This document shows, one piece after another, positions 3,272-19,446 of a stretch of DNA of 33,086 bases. A model generated the notes under the pieces. The model was given only the letters and a program-made list of their open reading frames with translations, was not told where the DNA came from and ran no database searches. The DNA is taken from positions 1 to 33,086 of IMG/VR virus record IMGVR_UViG_3300017776_000077; one strand, given 5' to 3'. A program made the position numbers and the translations under genes. Each line of letters starts with the position of its first letter. The first letter of the stretch is position 1. This stretch comes from a virus.

Positions 3272-3717
3272 ATATAGATAAGCTAAGAGAACAGCTAGCT
3301 GAAGATGAGGGGTGCAAGTTTGAGATATATCTTGACCATCTTGGCTATGAAACTTTTGGCATTGGTCATTTGGTTCGTGACCTTGACCCCGAATACGGTG
3401 AACCAGTAGGAACACATGTTTCCGAAGAACGTGTCATTGATGCTTTTGAAGGCGATATTGACATAACTCTGGCTGACTGCCTACTGGTGTTCGATGACTT
3501 TGCTAGCTTTCCTGAAGAGGTGCAGTTAATATTGGCTAACATGATGTTCAATATGGGTATGCCAAGACTGTCTAAGTTCAAGAAAATGATTGCTGCGGTT
3601 GAGGCTGGGGACTACCAAGAAGCTGCCGCCCAGATGAAAGACTCAAGGTGGTATCATCAGGTAACTAACAGGGCTGAAAGGCTCATTAAAAGAATGAAGG
3701 ATGTGAGGGATGGCTAA
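3268..3717 (+). CDS. Endolysin, T4-type lysozyme (muramidase)
   Basis: 149 residues (T4 lysozyme has 164), hydrolysing the MurNAc-GlcNAc bonds of peptidoglycan. The catalytic triad is visible with T4 spacing: Glu14 (EDEG), Asp23 (YLDHLGY) and Thr29 (ETFGIGHL). The C-terminal signature SRWYHQVTNRAERLI (about residues 126-140) is also T4-like, as is NMMFNMG in the middle. There is no signal peptide, so it needs the holin at 2211-2606 to reach the wall. It starts in an ATGA overlap with a basic-protein gene, and the downstream basic protein overlaps its 3' end. Confidence 0.95.
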   Translation: MNIDKLREQLAEDEGCKFEIYLDHLGYETFGIGHLVRDLDPEYGEPVGTHVSEERVIDAFEGDIDITLADCLLVFDDFASFPEEVQLILANMMFNMGMPRLSKFKKMIAAVEAGDYQEAAAQMKDSRWYHQVTNRAERLIKRMKDVRDG

Positions 3718-4012
3718 GACACCAGCTTGGCAACGCAAAGAGGGCAAGAACCCGAAGGGTGGGTTGAATGCTAAAGGCCGTGCATCTGCAAAGAAGCAGG
3801 GTATGAATCTCAAGCGTCCTGTTAAGAAGGGTGACAACCCTAGACGCGCAAGTTTTCTGGCTCGTATGGGCGGTATGAAAGGGCCAGAACGTAAGGACGG
3901 CAAACCTACTAGGTTGCTGTTGTCTCTCAGGGCGTGGGGGGCATCATCAAAAGCTGACGCTAAGAAAAAAGCAGCAGCTATTTCTAAACGCAACAAAGCG
4001 AAGAAAGGATAA
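3710..4012 (+). CDS. Basic protein, DUF6321-like
   Basis: 100 residues, strongly basic. The pattern AWQRKEGKNPKGGLNAKGRASA, then NLKRPVKKGDNPRRASFLARMGGMKG and a LRAW motif near residue 75 matches the DUF6321-type family as I recall it; function unknown. It overlaps the lysozyme 3' end by eight bases and starts after GGATGTGAGGG. Rich in Lys, Arg and Gly, without cysteines or hydrophobic helices. Likely a nucleic-acid-binding or virion-associated protein (inference). Confidence 0.75.
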   Translation: MAKTPAWQRKEGKNPKGGLNAKGRASAKKQGMNLKRPVKKGDNPRRASFLARMGGMKGPERKDGKPTRLLLSLRAWGASSKADAKKKAAAISKRNKAKKG

Positions 4013-4016
4013 AGTC

Positions 4017-4130
4017 ATGCCAATGGGTAAGGGTACATACGGTTCAAAGGTGGGTCGCCCACCGAAGAAAGCAAAGATGATGGCAAAGCCAAGCATGAAA
4101 AAGCCAGCCAAGCCAATGAAGAAGAAATAA
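4017..4130 (+). CDS. 37-aa basic protein (MPMGKGTYGSKVGRPPKK family)
   Basis: A short frame from ATG 4017 to TAA 4128-4130. The N-terminus MPMGKGTYGSKVGRPPKK is a recurring start of small phage proteins; GRPPKK resembles an AT-hook core (GRP flanked by basic residues) that can lie in the DNA minor groove. The rest is Lys/Met/Pro. It is the last gene of the rightward unit, ending directly before a stem-loop. Confidence 0.75.
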   Translation: MPMGKGTYGSKVGRPPKKAKMMAKPSMKKPAKPMKKK

Positions 4131-4164
4131 AAAATACCCAGCGGTGCTTTTGCAACCGCTGGGT
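4124..4164 (-). terminator. Stem-loop between converging operons
   Basis: Arms 4136-4145 (ACCCAGCGGT) and 4155-4164 (ACCGCTGGGT) are a perfect 10-bp inverted repeat with a 9-base loop. On the minus strand the stem is followed by a T-rich run (complement of 4124-4135), so it is a good intrinsic terminator for the leftward operon ending at 4205. The stem may also stop rightward transcripts after 4130, but the plus-strand T tail is poor. Confidence 0.8.
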
Positions 4165-4204
4165 TAGTGGCTTGCACCATATGCAAATGCAAGCTAGGGA
4201 GAAA

Positions 4205-4585
4205 CTAGGCTGTTTCTAAGAAAGCTGCGTCTTCCTCACTTTGCATAACGCGCTCTCGCAAATCCTCATATATTTTACTGTAGTCTGTGTCTAGCTTAAC
4301 GTCAACGCTATTCATAACTGTTGTGTGGTCACGGTTTATAAACCGCCCTATCATTGGATAGCTTGCTTCGGTAAACTCTCCTGCCAGCTTGCAGAATATA
4401 TGCCGTTGTTGGGCTAGTCCGTATGTTCTTCGTTTCATTCTTAGTTGCTTGTATGTTATGCCGTAATGATGTTGCATGATGTGCATAATCTTTTCAAGCC
4501 TTGTGAATCTCTTAGTCATCGAGAGATAGAACGAATCCATCTGCTTGAGATGGTCTATCCTCTGACCGCATGTAGCGCACTTCAT
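4205..4585 (-). CDS. Stand-alone DnaA domain IV (DNA-binding) protein
   Basis: 126 residues from the ATG at 4585, which has AGGAG about eleven bases upstream; a longer frame to 4630 would overlap the previous gene much more. The N-terminus has a CATCG pair of cysteines (residues 3 and 6). The C-terminal half (about residues 42-100) reads like DnaA domain IV: RRTYGLAQQRHIFCKLAGEF, then the DHTTV signature at 86-90 inside RFINRDHTTVMNSVDVKL. The AAA+ ATPase domain of DnaA is absent. It could recognise DnaA boxes, recruit or titrate host initiation, or mark a phage origin. Last gene of the leftward recombination operon. Confidence 0.8.
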   Translation of the reverse strand: MKCATCGQRIDHLKQMDSFYLSMTKRFTRLEKIMHIMQHHYGITYKQLRMKRRTYGLAQQRHIFCKLAGEFTEASYPMIGRFINRDHTTVMNSVDVKLDTDYSKIYEDLRERVMQSEEDAAFLETA

Positions 4586-4733
4586 CAAAACAATTTCTCC
4601 TGTTGCTATAGCAAAGCACTTGCCTTGCACCGTTTACTACCCAACCACCTTCCATAACGTAATGCTTTTTTCCGCAATGTTCGCACGTTGTCTGTCTGGC
4701 TGGGGATGTTTTACTAACTTTCTTCCTTGCCAT
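4512..4733 (-). CDS. Small zinc-finger-like protein
   Basis: 73 residues. A basic N-terminus (ARKKVSKTS) is followed by CEHCGKKH (residues 17-24) and later a single Cys in VLCYSNRRNCF, giving a plausible C-X2-C...C-X7-C metal site. Size and composition fit small phage DNA- or RNA-binding proteins. The C-terminus overlaps the next gene by about 74 bases and the start overlaps the previous gene by 20. No family is recognised. Confidence 0.65.
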   Translation of the reverse strand: MARKKVSKTSPARQTTCEHCGKKHYVMEGGWVVNGARQVLCYSNRRNCFDEVRYMRSEDRPSQADGFVLSLDD

Positions 4734-4887
4734 TTTTCCGCTGATACTCCTGAGACTTGGCTATAAGGTCTTGCGCCATCCACAGTTGTTGCTTAACAGT
4801 CTGATGGTGGAAGTAACTCTTGCCATCTATGGTGATGAGAAGCCCATCATCATAGACAGCAACAAGTATTTCGTGTGCAGCTTCCAT
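4714..4887 (-). CDS. Small hypothetical protein
   Basis: 57 residues from ATG 4887, one base after the stop of the SSB-like gene; an ATG six codons upstream is possible but would run into that gene. The sequence reads as a small alpha/beta protein (ILVAVYDDGLLITIDGKSYF, then KQQLWMAQDLIAKSQEYQRK). No motif or membrane segment identifies it. Position inside the ssDNA-handling operon is the only clue. Confidence 0.6.
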   Translation of the reverse strand: MEAAHEILVAVYDDGLLITIDGKSYFHHQTVKQQLWMAQDLIAKSQEYQRKNGKEES

Positions 4888-4888
4888 C

Positions 4889-5206
4889 TTAGAACGGCAC
4901 GTCATCGTCTAGGCTAAGACCACGGCTGGCACTGAGTGAGTCTGACAGCTTCTTCATGCCACCTTGCTTGAGGTCAGCACCTAAGTTATCAGTTCCCTGT
5001 TGTTGGATAGGGTCAGTGATAGATATGCCCAGTGAGCCATCGCTTTCCTCAAAGACAGACACGCGATACTGCTTGTCACCTCTGAGGATGATATCTCCTG
5101 GTGAGCCATCCTTGTATGGAGTGAACTTACTGTTACCCCACTTAGCTGCGCCCTTGTCATTCAAGAACACTTTGATGTTCATTACTCTTTGATAGTTAGT
5201 AGCCAT
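4889..5206 (-). CDS. SSB-like single-stranded DNA-binding protein
   Basis: 105 residues. The compact beta-rich N-terminal part (NIKVFLNDKGAAKWGNSKF, then GDIILRGDKQYRVSVFEE) is compatible with an OB fold. The C-terminus ends in LDDDVPF, the acidic tip with terminal Pro-Phe that in bacterial SSBs recruits replication and repair partners. It is followed in the operon by small proteins and the DnaA-type protein and preceded by an annealing-like recombinase, so it fits a phage ssDNA-handling set. It is shorter than typical SSB and I cannot confirm the fold without a structure search. Confidence 0.65.
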   Translation of the reverse strand: MATNYQRVMNIKVFLNDKGAAKWGNSKFTPYKDGSPGDIILRGDKQYRVSVFEESDGSLGISITDPIQQQGTDNLGADLKQGGMKKLSDSLSASRGLSLDDDVPF

Positions 5207-5217
5207 GTTTATCTCCT

Positions 5218-5889
5218 CTATGAAAATTCGGCTAGTTTTTCTTGGAACTTGCCAAGAATCTGTTGTGCGGCATCCGCATCTCTGTCACGCAAGTCTTTGA
5301 TGGCTGGCTTCATCTCAACGAAGTACTGCTCAACGGTTGCGCGTGTCTTCTTGTTTATAAGAGCATTGATGATTGTGTACATCAGGTCTTTGTCAGCACC
5401 GCTGTATCGTTCAGGTTGGGATTCCTGAACAGGCGGTGGCGCGTCCGATGAGGGAGGAGTTACATCAGTGCTGCCAACCGCCTGACTGCTCAGGTTCTGT
5501 GACTTACGCCCGACAGCTTCCATCTCATTAGCACTGGCATATTCACCGCCAGACAGACCGATAGACGCTAAGGCACGGCCTACGGCTGATGTCTCACAGT
5601 TCTCAAGGGCAGATGTTTTGTTGACATGCCCTTCACCGCGTATCTCTTCAGCCATACCAGAACCAATAACGATTCCGTTTTGATTAGTAATTATAGCTTT
5701 AACTACCACCCTGTGTCCATCATCAACAAGGACTTGGGTATCAACGCCAAGCTCTAGGCCAAAGACTGTGCGGAATGCTTCCATACGGTGAACGACTTGT
5801 GTGTATTTCTTGCCGCCACGCTGGGTTATTCCGTGTTTGTTATGGAACTCATTAACAAGCCCCATTGCATCCATAATATTAGCTGTCAT
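5218..5889 (-). CDS. ssDNA-annealing recombinase-like protein (ERF/Rad52-type)
   Basis: 223 residues; start fixed by GGAGGA upstream. The N-terminal domain (about 1-130) has the order seen in phage ERF/Sak-like annealing proteins: GGKKYTQVVHRMEAFR, a beta hairpin, then HVNKTSALENCETSAVGRALASIGL (about residues 88-112). A Pro/Ser-rich linker (about 138-162) leads to a helical C-terminal part. It would pair complementary strands together with the exonuclease encoded at the head of the same operon, the classic two-gene phage recombination module. Family name is by pattern; a distant ssDNA-binding role without annealing is possible. Confidence 0.65.
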   Translation of the reverse strand: MTANIMDAMGLVNEFHNKHGITQRGGKKYTQVVHRMEAFRTVFGLELGVDTQVLVDDGHRVVVKAIITNQNGIVIGSGMAEEIRGEGHVNKTSALENCETSAVGRALASIGLSGGEYASANEMEAVGRKSQNLSSQAVGSTDVTPPSSDAPPPVQESQPERYSGADKDLMYTIINALINKKTRATVEQYFVEMKPAIKDLRDRDADAAQQILGKFQEKLAEFS

Positions 5890-6043
5890 ATTCTGTGTCC
5901 TCCAACTTATCCATATAGTTACTCATCATACGCATGGCAAAGAACAGTGTCTCTGATAGTTCTTCCATGCGCTTCTCCAGCTTCTTGATACGCTCTTGTG
6001 TGATGTCAATCATCTGAGCGTGTTCTTGTTCAGTCTCAGTCAT
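5879..6043 (-). CDS. 54-aa coiled-coil protein
   Basis: A frame too short for standard gene lists, from ATG 6043 to TAA at 5881-5879. It overlaps the upstream gene by eight bases and the downstream recombinase by eleven. The product is almost wholly helical, with heptads through ITQERIKKLEKRMEELSETLF (residues 14-34). It fills what would otherwise be a gap in a tightly packed operon. Likely an oligomerising accessory protein; no family recognised. Confidence 0.7.
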   Translation of the reverse strand: MTETEQEHAQMIDITQERIKKLEKRMEELSETLFFAMRMMSNYMDKLEDTEYDS

Positions 6044-6302
6044 TGGTTTGCTCCCTCTTCATTTGCTCATAAATCATTTGCACATTTGCAGAGTATTGCT
6101 TAACAAATGCGCTAGTAACTTTATTTCGCTTACCACCAGCGGCAAGTTTAATTCTTGCCATAACTTGACAAGCCAAAGACATTTTCAGGATTTCATCTGC
6201 ATCCATGTTTGCAAAGTCAGTGTCGCATACATCCCAAAAGCCTTGGCTTGCCCAACTAGACAACAACTCAAATTCTTCTTTAGTCATTTCTAGTTTTATC
6301 AT
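6036..6302 (-). CDS. Early protein ending in a copy of the capsid protein N-terminal segment
   Basis: 88 residues, start supported by AAGGGGGG about eight bases before the ATG. The N-terminal part (about 1-55) is helical and acidic (KEEFELLSSWASQGFW, DADEILKMSLACQVMAR). After a short basic link (GGKRNK) residues 63-81 contain AFV-x-QYSANVQM-xxx-QM. The coat protein encoded at 18553 has the same series at residues 6-24: 14 of 19 identical and four of the rest conservative. Most shared codons differ only at silent positions, so the likeness is kept at protein level. It could bind the coat protein or what the coat N-terminus binds (scaffold or neighbouring coat). No named family is recognised. 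Confidence 0.8.
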   Translation of the reverse strand: MIKLEMTKEEFELLSSWASQGFWDVCDTDFANMDADEILKMSLACQVMARIKLAAGGKRNKVTSAFVKQYSANVQMIYEQMKREQTND

Positions 6303-6627
6303 CTTTACCCCCCTTAAATAGCTGGTTCACATTATTGTTTTTAAGGTTGCATCTTCTGTCTTGTCGGCTGGGTGAGCGAGGCGATATCGTTGGAACTGCC
6401 ATCGTTCTTCTTAGCTTTTCTTTCATTTCATTAAAAGACACGACTGGGTTAAAGCCAGTCATATTAACAGCCTGACCTCTAACAACCGTTCCGTTGTCAA
6501 GGCATTTAGGACAAGCATCAGAAAAATTTTCTTTGCTATTAAGTGCCTTAACAATAGCTATTCTACTCCAGCCACATTTCCATGTGTGTTCACACGCCTC
6601 ACAAATATGTTCAATAACTATACTCAT
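6280..6627 (-). CDS. Zinc-ribbon protein
   Basis: 115 residues from the ATG at 6627, where GGAG lies six bases upstream and the exonuclease stop overlaps (TGATG). Two cysteine pairs, CEACEHTWKC (residues 8-17) and CPKC (about 35-38), form a probable zinc ribbon. The C-terminal half is basic (KEKLRRTMAVP, SPSRQDRRC) and likely disordered. Such small zinc-ribbon proteins often sit beside nucleases or polymerases in phage genomes. Exact role unknown. Confidence 0.7.
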   Translation of the reverse strand: MSIVIEHICEACEHTWKCGWSRIAIVKALNSKENFSDACPKCLDNGTVVRGQAVNMTGFNPVVSFNEMKEKLRRTMAVPTISPRSPSRQDRRCNLKNNNVNQLFKGGKDDKTRND

Positions 6628-7517
6628 CACACTCTCCACGCCTGTTTAGCTATATTAAGTATTTCCTGTCCGTGCCTTGCCCCAATCTGACCATAATCAG
6701 GGGCAACCATACTAAACAACGTCTTCCAATTACCGTATGACGCTTTCATCAGGTTCTGTATGACCAACCAACGCCCTACAATCGTCCTGTAAGCCTCTTC
6801 CAGAGCCTCTGGCCTTAGTGCTGGGCAATTCTCGCCTGTCGCTATGTTGTAGCCGTCAGAGGTTACGAAAAGCAGTGCTGGTTTTAAGCCAGTGGCCTTC
6901 CAGTACACCGCCTGTTGCATAACCTGTTGCTCTGTTGGGGTTGTCTTTGGCTTTGGTACTCGCCATGTCCGCGTGCCATCCTTTCTGGGTGGGTTACGAA
7001 CAGGCAGGGAACACTTCAAGTCAATCTGTTTCTCATCATCAGCGTAATCCAAGAACAGCGTCACTGGCACATCAATATGTTCTTCCCAGTAGAAGCGTTG
7101 GTATTCGCCTTCGATGGGGGCATCACCAAAGAATTGCTTTAGCCCCTCAACAGCGTGTAGTGACATGGCCTCGACATGCTCGATGAACTCTGCCTTTTCT
7201 TCAGCGTCCTTGCCATCATCCCAGTCTTTTGGCTGGTACTGCATAAACTCAGTCCGGCCTTTGGTGATAGCATCTGACATTGGAATGCCTTGTTGCTGAC
7301 CCATAATAGGACTGTAATCATGCAAGCCCAGATGAAGGTCAGCCACCATCTGCACAATCTGACCAGCTTTAGGTCTGGACGAAAACGGAAAGCCCATCTG
7401 GTATTCTTTTCTAAGATACATTTTTAGAATGTGTTCATCGATGGTCTGAGTGCCACCGGAGGCAGAGACATGAATCCTGCCAAACTCTTTTGAATAATCG
7501 GGTACTTCGTATTCCAT
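6627..7517 (-). CDS. PD-(D/E)XK exonuclease (Cas4/RecB-like)
   Basis: 296 residues, first gene of the leftward operon with GGAGG before the ATG. The nuclease core is visible: Glu138 region (EGEYQ), Asp157 (LFLDYADD), Asp166-Leu-Lys168 (QIDLKCS) and the QxxxY motif Gln201-Tyr205 (QQAVYWKATG), as in RecB/Cas4/lambda-exo-like nucleases. It probably resects double-stranded ends so that the annealing protein encoded downstream can pair strands. Its promoter is the perfect TTGACA in the divergent region at 7552-7578. Polarity and iron-sulphur content cannot be read. Confidence 0.8.
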   Translation of the reverse strand: MEYEVPDYSKEFGRIHVSASGGTQTIDEHILKMYLRKEYQMGFPFSSRPKAGQIVQMVADLHLGLHDYSPIMGQQQGIPMSDAITKGRTEFMQYQPKDWDDGKDAEEKAEFIEHVEAMSLHAVEGLKQFFGDAPIEGEYQRFYWEEHIDVPVTLFLDYADDEKQIDLKCSLPVRNPPRKDGTRTWRVPKPKTTPTEQQVMQQAVYWKATGLKPALLFVTSDGYNIATGENCPALRPEALEEAYRTIVGRWLVIQNLMKASYGNWKTLFSMVAPDYGQIGARHGQEILNIAKQAWRV

Positions 7518-17460: not shown

Positions 17461-18309
17461 ATGTCAGAAGAAAATGTCGAACAGGTAGCCCAGCCTGAAG
17501 CTGCACCGCTGGAAACTCCAGCAGAAGTAGCGCAAGGTGGGTCTGGTAACGATTTTTTAGGAATGATACCAGAGGAGTTGCGAGAGCATCCAAGTCTTTC
17601 ACCAATCAAAGACGTTGGTAATCTTGCAAGGTCGTACATAAACGCACAGAAGTTAATTGGCGCAGACAAGATACCAATGCCAGTTAACCCATCAGACGAA
17701 GACCTTGACCGTATATATAATCGGCTTGGTCGTCCCGAAACACCAGATGGCTACCAGTTAACTGCTGATGGCAATATCGTAACAGAAGACTTGGTGAAAG
17801 ATTTTGCTGATTTTTCACACAAGTTACGCTTAACGCCAGAGCAAGCCAGTAGCATTATGGATTACTATCGGTCATCTGTAGAGCAAACGAACGCTGGTAG
17901 TGTGGAACAGGCTGAAGCATTTAGGCAAACTACTGAGGAGTCATTGAAGTCAGAGTGGGGTCGGGCTTATGACCAAAAGCTAACTCAGGCGGTCAATGCT
18001 GCTAAAGAGTTTTCTAACCCTGAAATATTTGACTTGCAGTTAAATGATGGTTCACGGTTGGGTGACAACCCGGAGTTTATTAAAACATTTGCAAAAATCG
18101 CAGAGTTTAGGCAAACTGTCACCAGCGAAGATACAATATCTGAGAATGCACAATCTAATGTTATGACACCGAAACAGGCTCAGACAGAGATTGATACAAT
18201 GCTCAGAGATAAGTCCCACGCATATTGGGACAAGTCAAACATCGTTGGGCGGCAACAAGCCATTCAACGGATGCAAGAGTTGATGGGTATGGTTCATGGA
18301 GAGGCTTGA
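17461..18309 (+). CDS. Capsid assembly scaffolding protein
   Basis: 282 residues, GAGGAG upstream. Acidic, Gln/Glu-rich and helical, low in cysteine. It carries SPIKDVGNLARSYINAQKLIG (about 56-76) and NRLGRPETPDGYQL (about 87-100), both hallmarks of T7-like and BPP-1-like scaffolds, and has a C-terminal helix with QQAIQRMQELMG. It directs coat assembly and then leaves the prohead. Lies directly before the coat gene, as usual. Confidence 0.9.
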   Translation: MSEENVEQVAQPEAAPLETPAEVAQGGSGNDFLGMIPEELREHPSLSPIKDVGNLARSYINAQKLIGADKIPMPVNPSDEDLDRIYNRLGRPETPDGYQLTADGNIVTEDLVKDFADFSHKLRLTPEQASSIMDYYRSSVEQTNAGSVEQAEAFRQTTEESLKSEWGRAYDQKLTQAVNAAKEFSNPEIFDLQLNDGSRLGDNPEFIKTFAKIAEFRQTVTSEDTISENAQSNVMTPKQAQTEIDTMLRDKSHAYWDKSNIVGRQQAIQRMQELMGMVHGEA

Positions 18310-18552: not shown

Positions 18553-19446
18553 ATGTCTACTCAAATTACTACCGCGTTCGTCCAACAGTATTCTGCAAAC
18601 GTGCAGATGCTCGCGCAACAGATGGGAAGCCGTCTGCGTGACACGGTGCGTATTGAGAATGTCGTTGGTAAAAACGCATTTATCGACCAAGTTGGTGTAG
18701 CTACTGCACAACTACGGTCAAGTCGGCATGCCGACACACCCCAGATGGATACGCCACATGCGCGTAGACGTTTAAGCCTAGCATCATACGAATATGCTGA
18801 CCTAATTGATGACCAAGACAAGGTTCGCATGTTGATTGACCCGACCTCATCATACGCTGCTGCTGCGGCTGCTGCTATGGGTCGTTCAATGGATGATGTT
18901 ATCATCTCTGCATTTGATGCAGCATCAAACACTGGTGAAACTGGCTCAAGCAGCACAGCTTTCGATACAAACCAAGATGTTGCTGTTTCAGTAGGCGGTG
19001 CTGATACTAACATGAACCTAACAAAGCTGCGTGAAGCAAAGAAGCTGCTTGACGAAGCTGACGTTGACCCATCAATCCCACGTTACATTGTAATGGGGCC
19101 GAGCCAAATTCACGCTCTGCTTGCTGACACAAGCGTAACATCAGCAGACTTTAACACTGTTAAAGCTCTGGTGCAGGGTGAGATTAATCAGTTCATGGGC
19201 TTCAACTTTGTGATGTCTAATCGCTTGGCAGCGGATTCAAATAATGTCCGTACATGCTTTGCTTGGGCTGAAGAAGGTATGGCTCTTGGTGTTGGTAAAG
19301 ATGTTTCTGCTCGTATTGATGAGCGTGCCGATAAAGGTTACGCAACTCAGGTATACTACTGCATGGACATCGGTGCTACTCGTATGCAAGAAAACATGGT
19401 TGTTCGCATTAAGTGCGATGAAGATGACCTTGATGGCGCAGCTTAG
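18553..19446 (+). CDS. Major capsid protein
   Basis: 297 residues; ATG 18553 has AAGGAG seven bases upstream and is preferred to the ATG six codons earlier. N-terminus TTAFVQQYSANVQMLAQQMG, then GSRLRDTV, DDQDKVRMLIDPTSSYA and MGRSMDDVIISAF, C-terminus with EGMALGVGKDVSARIDERAD and GATRM. It fits the coat family seen in BPP-1-like and similar podoviruses (HK97-like fold). It is expressed upstream of the terminator at 19953. Residues 6-24 are echoed in the early protein at 6036-6302. Confidence 0.92.
   Translation: MSTQITTAFVQQYSANVQMLAQQMGSRLRDTVRIENVVGKNAFIDQVGVATAQLRSSRHADTPQMDTPHARRRLSLASYEYADLIDDQDKVRMLIDPTSSYAAAAAAAMGRSMDDVIISAFDAASNTGETGSSSTAFDTNQDVAVSVGGADTNMNLTKLREAKKLLDEADVDPSIPRYIVMGPSQIHALLADTSVTSADFNTVKALVQGEINQFMGFNFVMSNRLAADSNNVRTCFAWAEEGMALGVGKDVSARIDERADKGYATQVYYCMDIGATRMQENMVVRIKCDEDDLDGAA

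Follow-up and report, generated by a model that had tools for sequence, protein, structure and literature searches.

Copies of a capsid N-terminal arm in unrelated small proteins of HTVC010P-type phages may act as a docking tag for the head

Why should a small accessory protein of a phage carry the N-terminal segment of that phage's major capsid protein? The question arises from the window, the whole 33,086-nucleotide stretch of the metagenomic viral record IMGVR_UViG_3300017776_000077 analysed here, in which residues 61-81 of an 88-amino-acid protein (KVTSAFVKQYSANVQMIYEQM) pair with residues 4-24 of the major capsid protein (QITTAFVQQYSANVQMLAQQM; Table 1). An earlier note, made from the DNA letters alone, had placed both genes correctly (the 88-aa ORF at 6302..6036 on the minus strand, the capsid ATG at 18553), and our recounts agree with its figures: residues 63-81 are identical to capsid residues 6-24 at 14 of 19 positions, the DNA of this stretch agrees at 39 of 57 bases, and different codons are used at 8 of the 14 shared residues. 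The segment is thus a homology kept at the protein level, as that note had concluded, and the remainder of the two proteins is unrelated. An SD-like purine-rich stretch, AAGGGGGG (6308-6315), lies 5 nt upstream of the ATG of the 88-aa ORF.

Table 1. Positions of the window features discussed in the text
Feature	Position	Strand	Basis
88-aa accessory protein (family A); capsid-arm segment near C-terminus	6036..6302	-	ORF listing, translation
Capsid-arm-like segment KVTSAFVKQYSANVQMIYEQM, residues 61-81 of the 88-aa protein	6060..6122	-	alignment, arm profile, AF2 helix
Accessory cassette slot, nuclease to 54-aa gene; L003 lacks it, L083 has another gene in its place	6044..6623	-	contig comparison
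Second protein of the cassette, 119 aa, without a family match	6280..6639	-	Pfam, PHROGs
296-aa protein, nuclease-like (weakly similar to the HTVC028P putative nuclease); bounds the slot upstream	6627..7517	-	
223-aa Sak/ERF-like annealing protein (phrog_11717; putative function)	5218..5889	-	
54-aa protein, coiled-coil-like; bounds the slot downstream and overlaps the last part of the 88-aa gene	5879..6043	-	
282-aa putative scaffolding protein, proposed arm partner	17461..18309	+	position and sequence
Major capsid protein, PF19821 / phrog_3437, predicted HK97 fold	18553..19446	+	Pfam, PHROGs, AF2
Capsid N-terminal arm, residues 4-24, QITTAFVQQYSANVQMLAQQM	18562..18624	+	alignment; predicted helix 3-23 (low pLDDT)

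The shuffles and searches rule out chance similarity as the source of the match. In ungapped BLOSUM62 comparisons the 88-aa protein scores at best 77 with the capsid protein and 33 with the next of the 56 window genes, and the top score in 2000 shuffles is 55. A tblastn search with the whole 88-aa protein against 50,697 phage records (E<=10) returned 21 matches, all 21 on the capsid N-termini of Pelagibacter phages. When a profile of capsid residues 3-34 was run against the six-frame ORFs of 258 loci, the 88-aa family was found at E 5.5e-9, and below E 0.01 the only non-capsid matches were this family and a helix-turn-helix family (E down to 9e-18). The objection that the segment might be a general motif, common in unrelated proteins, also fails: in the searches of phage records, prokaryote genomes and loci it was found in this phage group only, and the sole match of a degenerate arm pattern in 84,980 prokaryote genomes was a capsid gene (L261).

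Only residues 61-81 of the 88-aa protein resemble the capsid protein. It has no capsid match in Pfam or PHROGs, and it has the N-terminal arm sequence without the full HK97-type domain (about 290 residues) of PF19821 Phage_capsid_2. A Pfam match to DUF4046 (E 0.079) fell short of the cutoff and was disregarded. A low-confidence AF2 model (3 sequences, mean pLDDT 65.5) has a helix at residues 61-87, where pLDDT is about 70, and predicts helices, also at low confidence, in residues 1-55, which would be the payload. With a pI of 5.1 the protein is acidic, nothing in it points to nucleic-acid binding, and its neighbours (a nuclease, an annealing protein and an SSB-like protein) suggest that the gene is expressed early.

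The segment comes from the HTVC010P-type capsids (PF19821, phrog_3437), of whose domain the carriers have no other part. The window's capsid gene product matches PF19821 at E 7.4e-99 and is 60-67% identical to the capsids of HTVC010P-type pelagiphages; its residues 1-30 are almost invariant over related contigs. Its AF2 model, of low confidence (mean pLDDT 64.9), is HK97-like with an N-terminal helix at residues 3-23, and the Foldseek PDB matches of the model, among the matches listed, are HK97-type capsids or encapsulins. In P22 the C-terminal helices of the scaffold bind the N-arm helix of gp5, residues 2-30 (PMC9965877), and in SPP1 the N-terminal helix alpha1* is bound by the scaffold, which is stated to be common to P22, T7 and 80alpha (PMC6813328). 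By this analogy, the capsid helix here is expected to be a scaffold-binding arm. A candidate partner is encoded before the capsid gene, from which a single small ORF separates it. Its position and sequence point to a scaffolding protein: it is acidic (pI 4.6) and has a conserved C-terminal helix motif, SHAYWD...RQ.A..R...L....HG. The analogy supports the earlier suggestion that scaffold or coat may be the segment's natural binding partner. Within capsid codons 14-18 (window 18592-18606), codons 14, 17 and 18 are nearly fixed synonymously among 81 distinct genes (TCT in 79, GTG in 79 and CAG in all 81).

The 88-aa gene lies in a slot that varies between close relatives. Contig L083 is 99.9% identical to the window over 3500-6054, beyond which it has another small gene instead, and contig L003 is without the window's 6044-6623. 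The 88-aa gene is therefore a dispensable accessory cassette. We surveyed the slot by collecting relatives of both border genes and listing the ORFs between them. Control comparisons of 27 non-early window proteins with the 243 distinct slot ORFs gave matches for the capsid protein alone, and always through its N-terminus. The region between the nuclease and Sak-like genes (window, L003-L144) is a hotspot of small accessory genes. Three slot ORFs (L037:9424-9666, L039:5523-5771 and L126:672-914) are stand-alone copies of a zinc-type domain (YFTGxxCKxGHxxER), which elsewhere in the same phages is also found N-terminally in 218-296-aa proteins, probable HNH endonucleases. One 64-kb record, IMGVR_UViG_3300025889_000115 (L034, L101, L147, L171), has two capsid genes and two nuclease/Sak loci, and is probably two related phages joined in assembly.

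Sequence search alone found no relative of the 88-aa protein; synteny and alignment were needed. Homologues in L004 and L006 are 47% identical to it in the N-part and keep a recognisable arm, VTTTFMKQYCANVQ, and those in L139-141 and L258-260 have a much decayed one (VVTQFVQHYS). The earlier note had held that homologues lacking the segment would count against a link to the capsid; the link is not refuted on this point, as some homologues keep the segment and others have it in decay. In related phages the same slot between exonuclease (nuclease) and annealase is occupied by family B, a helix-turn-helix-type protein that is unrelated to the 88-aa family (family A) and has a charged, probably coiled-coil tail. 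Family B members with the arm (L049, L062, L066 and L252/L253) contain AFVQQYSANVQMLAQQ(K)G. Those without it (L051, L053, L054, L064 and L068) differ by exactly that 22-aa indel, and the rest is about 83% identical. The core AFVQQYSANVQMLA is identical in L049, L062, L066 and L253, and PHROGs labels residues 71-109 of the L049 protein 'major head protein' (phrog_3437 profile positions 2-40, E 2.4e-6). The arm-bearing family B contigs end short of the capsid gene.

A third slot family, with SKGAFVNHYAAEVRRKAQQ in L093, L095 and L101, was considered as a further carrier and rejected, as its profile match has E 4 and the insert-less L099 already has KAQQL. In this family (L093:1183-1506, L095:9423-9746 and L101:9527-9850 compared with L099:5041-5316) a 16-residue insert, KSKGAFVNHYAAEVRR, is present or absent, and has weak arm resemblance only.

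Outside the slot, the arm recurs in family D, a peptide of 34-49 residues in the lysis cluster, made up of the capsid arm and then a polylysine/arginine tail. It first came to light when the 35-residue arm was compared with about 100 whole contigs: besides the capsid gene, HTVC010P and contig G100 (MSQQIPTMFVSQYSKKKPTLLSQQMGKKKKKKKYKKKK) each had another match, in a short ORF. The HTVC010P peptide, MITKNFAQQYSRKTSMLSQQTGKKKKKKKYKKKK (KC465898.1 24896-25000; L354:897-1001), is unannotated, and its start and stop overlap both neighbours. Orthologues are found in Greip, HTVC024P, HTVC204P, HTVC203P, HTVC035P, HTVC034P, HTVC100P, Lederberg and Skadi (the loci beside L354 are L365-L370, L372-L374 and L388-L391), so that 10 of the 13 cultured pelagiphage records tested have the family, as do 6 contigs. 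It was not detected in HTVC028P, Baldr, Hodr, the window or near-full-length contigs of the window's lineage. In the records whose annotation was read, the genes adjoin peptidase M15 or holin-like genes. Most copies are unannotated, and the one in Greip is annotated as an HNH endonuclease-like protein. Among five close orthologues pS and pN are 0.35 and 0.09 in the arm and 0.99 and 0.06 in the polycation tail. The orthologues with their conserved start, together with the low pN relative to pS in both parts, show that family D is a real gene under purifying selection. In nearly all genomes searched, a profile built solely from family D matches the capsid N-terminus (E about 1e-7 to 1e-11), and the match begins at capsid residue 1. 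The peptide is therefore probably the truncated start of a capsid gene to which a polycation tail was added. The earlier note had described one case; an early protein with the capsid arm is not the common theme, as there are at least three independent carriers and the best-conserved one belongs to the lysis cluster.

The window itself has a basic 61-aa protein (2603-2788) directly after its holin, with a faintly arm-like C-terminus, QWSARKAQMLAKQYK. It was rejected as an arm carrier (E 6-19; phrog_17747 occurs in other phage types) and is probably unrelated. The HTVC010P family D gene likewise follows a holin-like gene.

Judged by sequence, the graft is recurrent: three or more kinds of protein have the coat arm, and one of these kinds is conserved. 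The arm is C-terminal in family A, internal in B and N-terminal in D, and the carriers otherwise share nothing. Between the 88-aa segment and the window's capsid, pS is 0.98 and pN 0.16; between family B segments and capsids, pS is 0.7-1.05 and pN 0.17-0.23, leaving aside L050, in which the arm has decayed. Among L049, L062 and L066, the B segments have pS 0.06-0.13 and pN 0.08-0.10, unlike their flanks (pS 0.26-0.91, pN 0.03-0.07). The near equality of pS and pN in the segment suggests that the B arm was recently gained or exchanged, with no visible constraint apart from the unchanged core. We reject a recent origin from any sampled capsid gene: the DNA pattern of family B, sought in 2.9 million viral contigs, is confined to family B contigs, the best capsid DNA matches are 76-80%, and no exact donor of the B arm was found. 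The donor was possibly a divergent, unsampled capsid gene.

Our preferred reading, tentative and at somewhat less than an even chance, is that the arm may be a transferable docking tag which, by analogy, would bring its carrier to the scaffold or shell as cargo or as a minor head component. On this reading the segment is the predicted N-terminal helix of the capsid protein, transplanted into an accessory protein that is otherwise unrelated to the coat. In the procapsids of tailed phages the C-terminus of the scaffolding protein holds this helix, which later reaches over the neighbouring coat subunit. A grafted arm could use the coat's own contact to hold its carrier on the scaffold or the inner shell surface, and the carrier would be drawn to the growing head. 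In family D, the polylysine tail behind the arm would then tether nucleic acid to the head; in family B, an arm within a helix-turn-helix protein of the DNA-binding type would fit recruitment of the carrier. The sequences of both suggest nucleic-acid binding, and for this reason we favour recruitment over pure inhibition. Docking, recruitment and whatever the carriers do later are what we infer from the helix predicted for both copies, the recurrent grafts, the conservation of family D, the capsid-only matches in the slot and the putative scaffold gene upstream. Against docking, both AF2 models are of low confidence, the 88-aa gene is dispensable and the B segment is not clearly under purifying selection. 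The families also place the arm differently and have nothing else in common, and family A is acidic, with nothing to suggest that it binds nucleic acid. A more specific version, that the HTVC010P-type arm is a head-docking module repeatedly fused to other proteins, the widespread and unannotated arm-polylysine peptide among them, which are built into the head, perhaps on the scaffold or in arm grooves that stay empty around the portal vertex, and so bring parts that bind nucleic acid or regulate into the virion, is rather unlikely.

The effect of the 88-aa protein could equally be competition with the coat for the scaffold. The free arm of a carrier would then occupy the scaffold, or the arm groove of the coat, and delay or block assembly, either as the phage's own timing or as a poison for a related phage or satellite. 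The binding logic is the same as for a docking tag, the arm is near-invariant in the group, so one mimic could hit many rivals, an accessory cassette slot is where inter-phage weapons would be expected, and there is precedent in the capsid and scaffold mimics CpmB and Ccm of SaPIs (PMC5644958, PMC8569155). However, the phage's own capsid bears the same arm, so its own assembly would suffer, and most pelagiphages keep family D in the late lysis cluster, a poor place for an assembly poison. We consider competition unlikely. There is no evidence of immunity or timing, and the purposes that the earlier note had offered for the 88-aa protein (timing of assembly, interference or action against a satellite) are not supported. 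Decidedly unlikely, too, is that the grafts in A and B have no function, illegitimate recombination having moved part of the capsid gene into a linker or tail that tolerates it, where it now decays. This would account for the presence and absence of the segment among close relatives (family B and the window's cassette), for B segment amino acids changing about as fast as synonymous sites, for the decayed copy in L050 and for the divergence of the family A homologues in L004 and L139, and the low pN of family A may merely reflect an unsampled donor capsid. Yet at least two separate in-frame grafts into this one slot took the identical part of the capsid gene, with none from the 26 other proteins tested. 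The pS and pN of the 88-aa segment against the window's capsid, the constant core in the four B proteins and the conservation of the same graft under selection in family D also argue against it.

A third possibility, highly doubtful, is that a host defence sensor reads the capsid arm and that an early carrier titrates the sensor without activating it. Major capsid proteins trigger host immunity directly, as the work on CapRel (PMC9712102) and on a TIR system (PMC11312562) shows, and the 88-aa gene, which occupies a variable place in an early-type operon, is swapped between near-identical phages. On the other hand, the site read by CapRel lies at about residues 113-116 of its capsid, not in the N-arm. 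A free arm might equally trigger the sensor, and the late arm-polylysine peptide would be left unexplained. We know of no sensor of the capsid N-arm. Finally, the shared TAYTCTGCNAAYGTGCARATG might be a DNA or RNA site in both genes, with the protein match a by-product. This 21-mer occurs exactly twice in the window, where 0.03 occurrences would be expected at up to 3 mismatches, and the near-fixed capsid codons 14, 17 and 18 would fit. Synonymous divergence largely refutes it: the codons differ at 8 of the 14 shared residues and pS between the copies is near saturation. In addition, pelagiphage capsid genes read TCT GCT AAC ATT CAA there, the reading frame is kept in all carriers, and family D shares little DNA sequence, which makes such a site hardly credible.

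The docking reading has a parallel in T4, where a short capsid targeting sequence brings otherwise unrelated internal head proteins into the head during assembly. The T4 sequence is N-terminal and is cleaved by the prohead protease; to our knowledge it does not copy the coat protein arm. The carriers described here are alike in having a short tag on otherwise unrelated phage proteins, and head entry would be the counterpart step. Unlike the N-terminal T4 tag, theirs is a homologue of the coat arm, and it is C-terminal in A, internal in B and N-terminal only in D. The satellite mimics offer another parallel: CpmB mimics the scaffold C-terminus, and Ccm, which is homologous to the capsid protein over its full length, becomes part of the shell (PMC5644958, PMC8569155). 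Both resemble a part of the assembly machinery, as the carriers do, and act through the coat-scaffold interface. In contrast to these satellite genes, about 20-26 coat residues are copied here, in the phage's own genome. A satellite of the kind that encodes capsid-size-redirecting proteins (CpmB, Sid, Ccm) would have no structural genes of its own; the window has portal, scaffold-like and capsid genes. As far as we know, neither of these nearest systems, satellite mimics or T4 tags, uses the coat's own arm. In capsid-triggered immunity, by CapRel SJ46 (PMC9712102) or the capsid-sensing TIR system (PMC11312562), a capsid stretch is a ligand outside the shell; the capsid there triggers the host sensor, and a phage-encoded decoy made of a capsid fragment is not known to us from these papers. 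In the open-access literature searched, copies of the coat arm within other phage proteins are nowhere described.

Phages of the HTVC010P type abound in the ocean, and family D has been overlooked in most of the records checked. If the coat arm is a portable docking tag, proteins that associate with the head or modulate assembly could be found by a sequence rule where annotation has missed them, and phages would have a possible route by which to evolve capsid mimics without satellites. A natural ligand of 20 residues would also make the capsid-scaffold contact of this group directly testable. Elsewhere in the window, a basic 100-aa protein (3710-4012) matches several large phage proteins at their C-termini (phrog_727 and phrog_3477 among them), which suggests that this module also moves between proteins.
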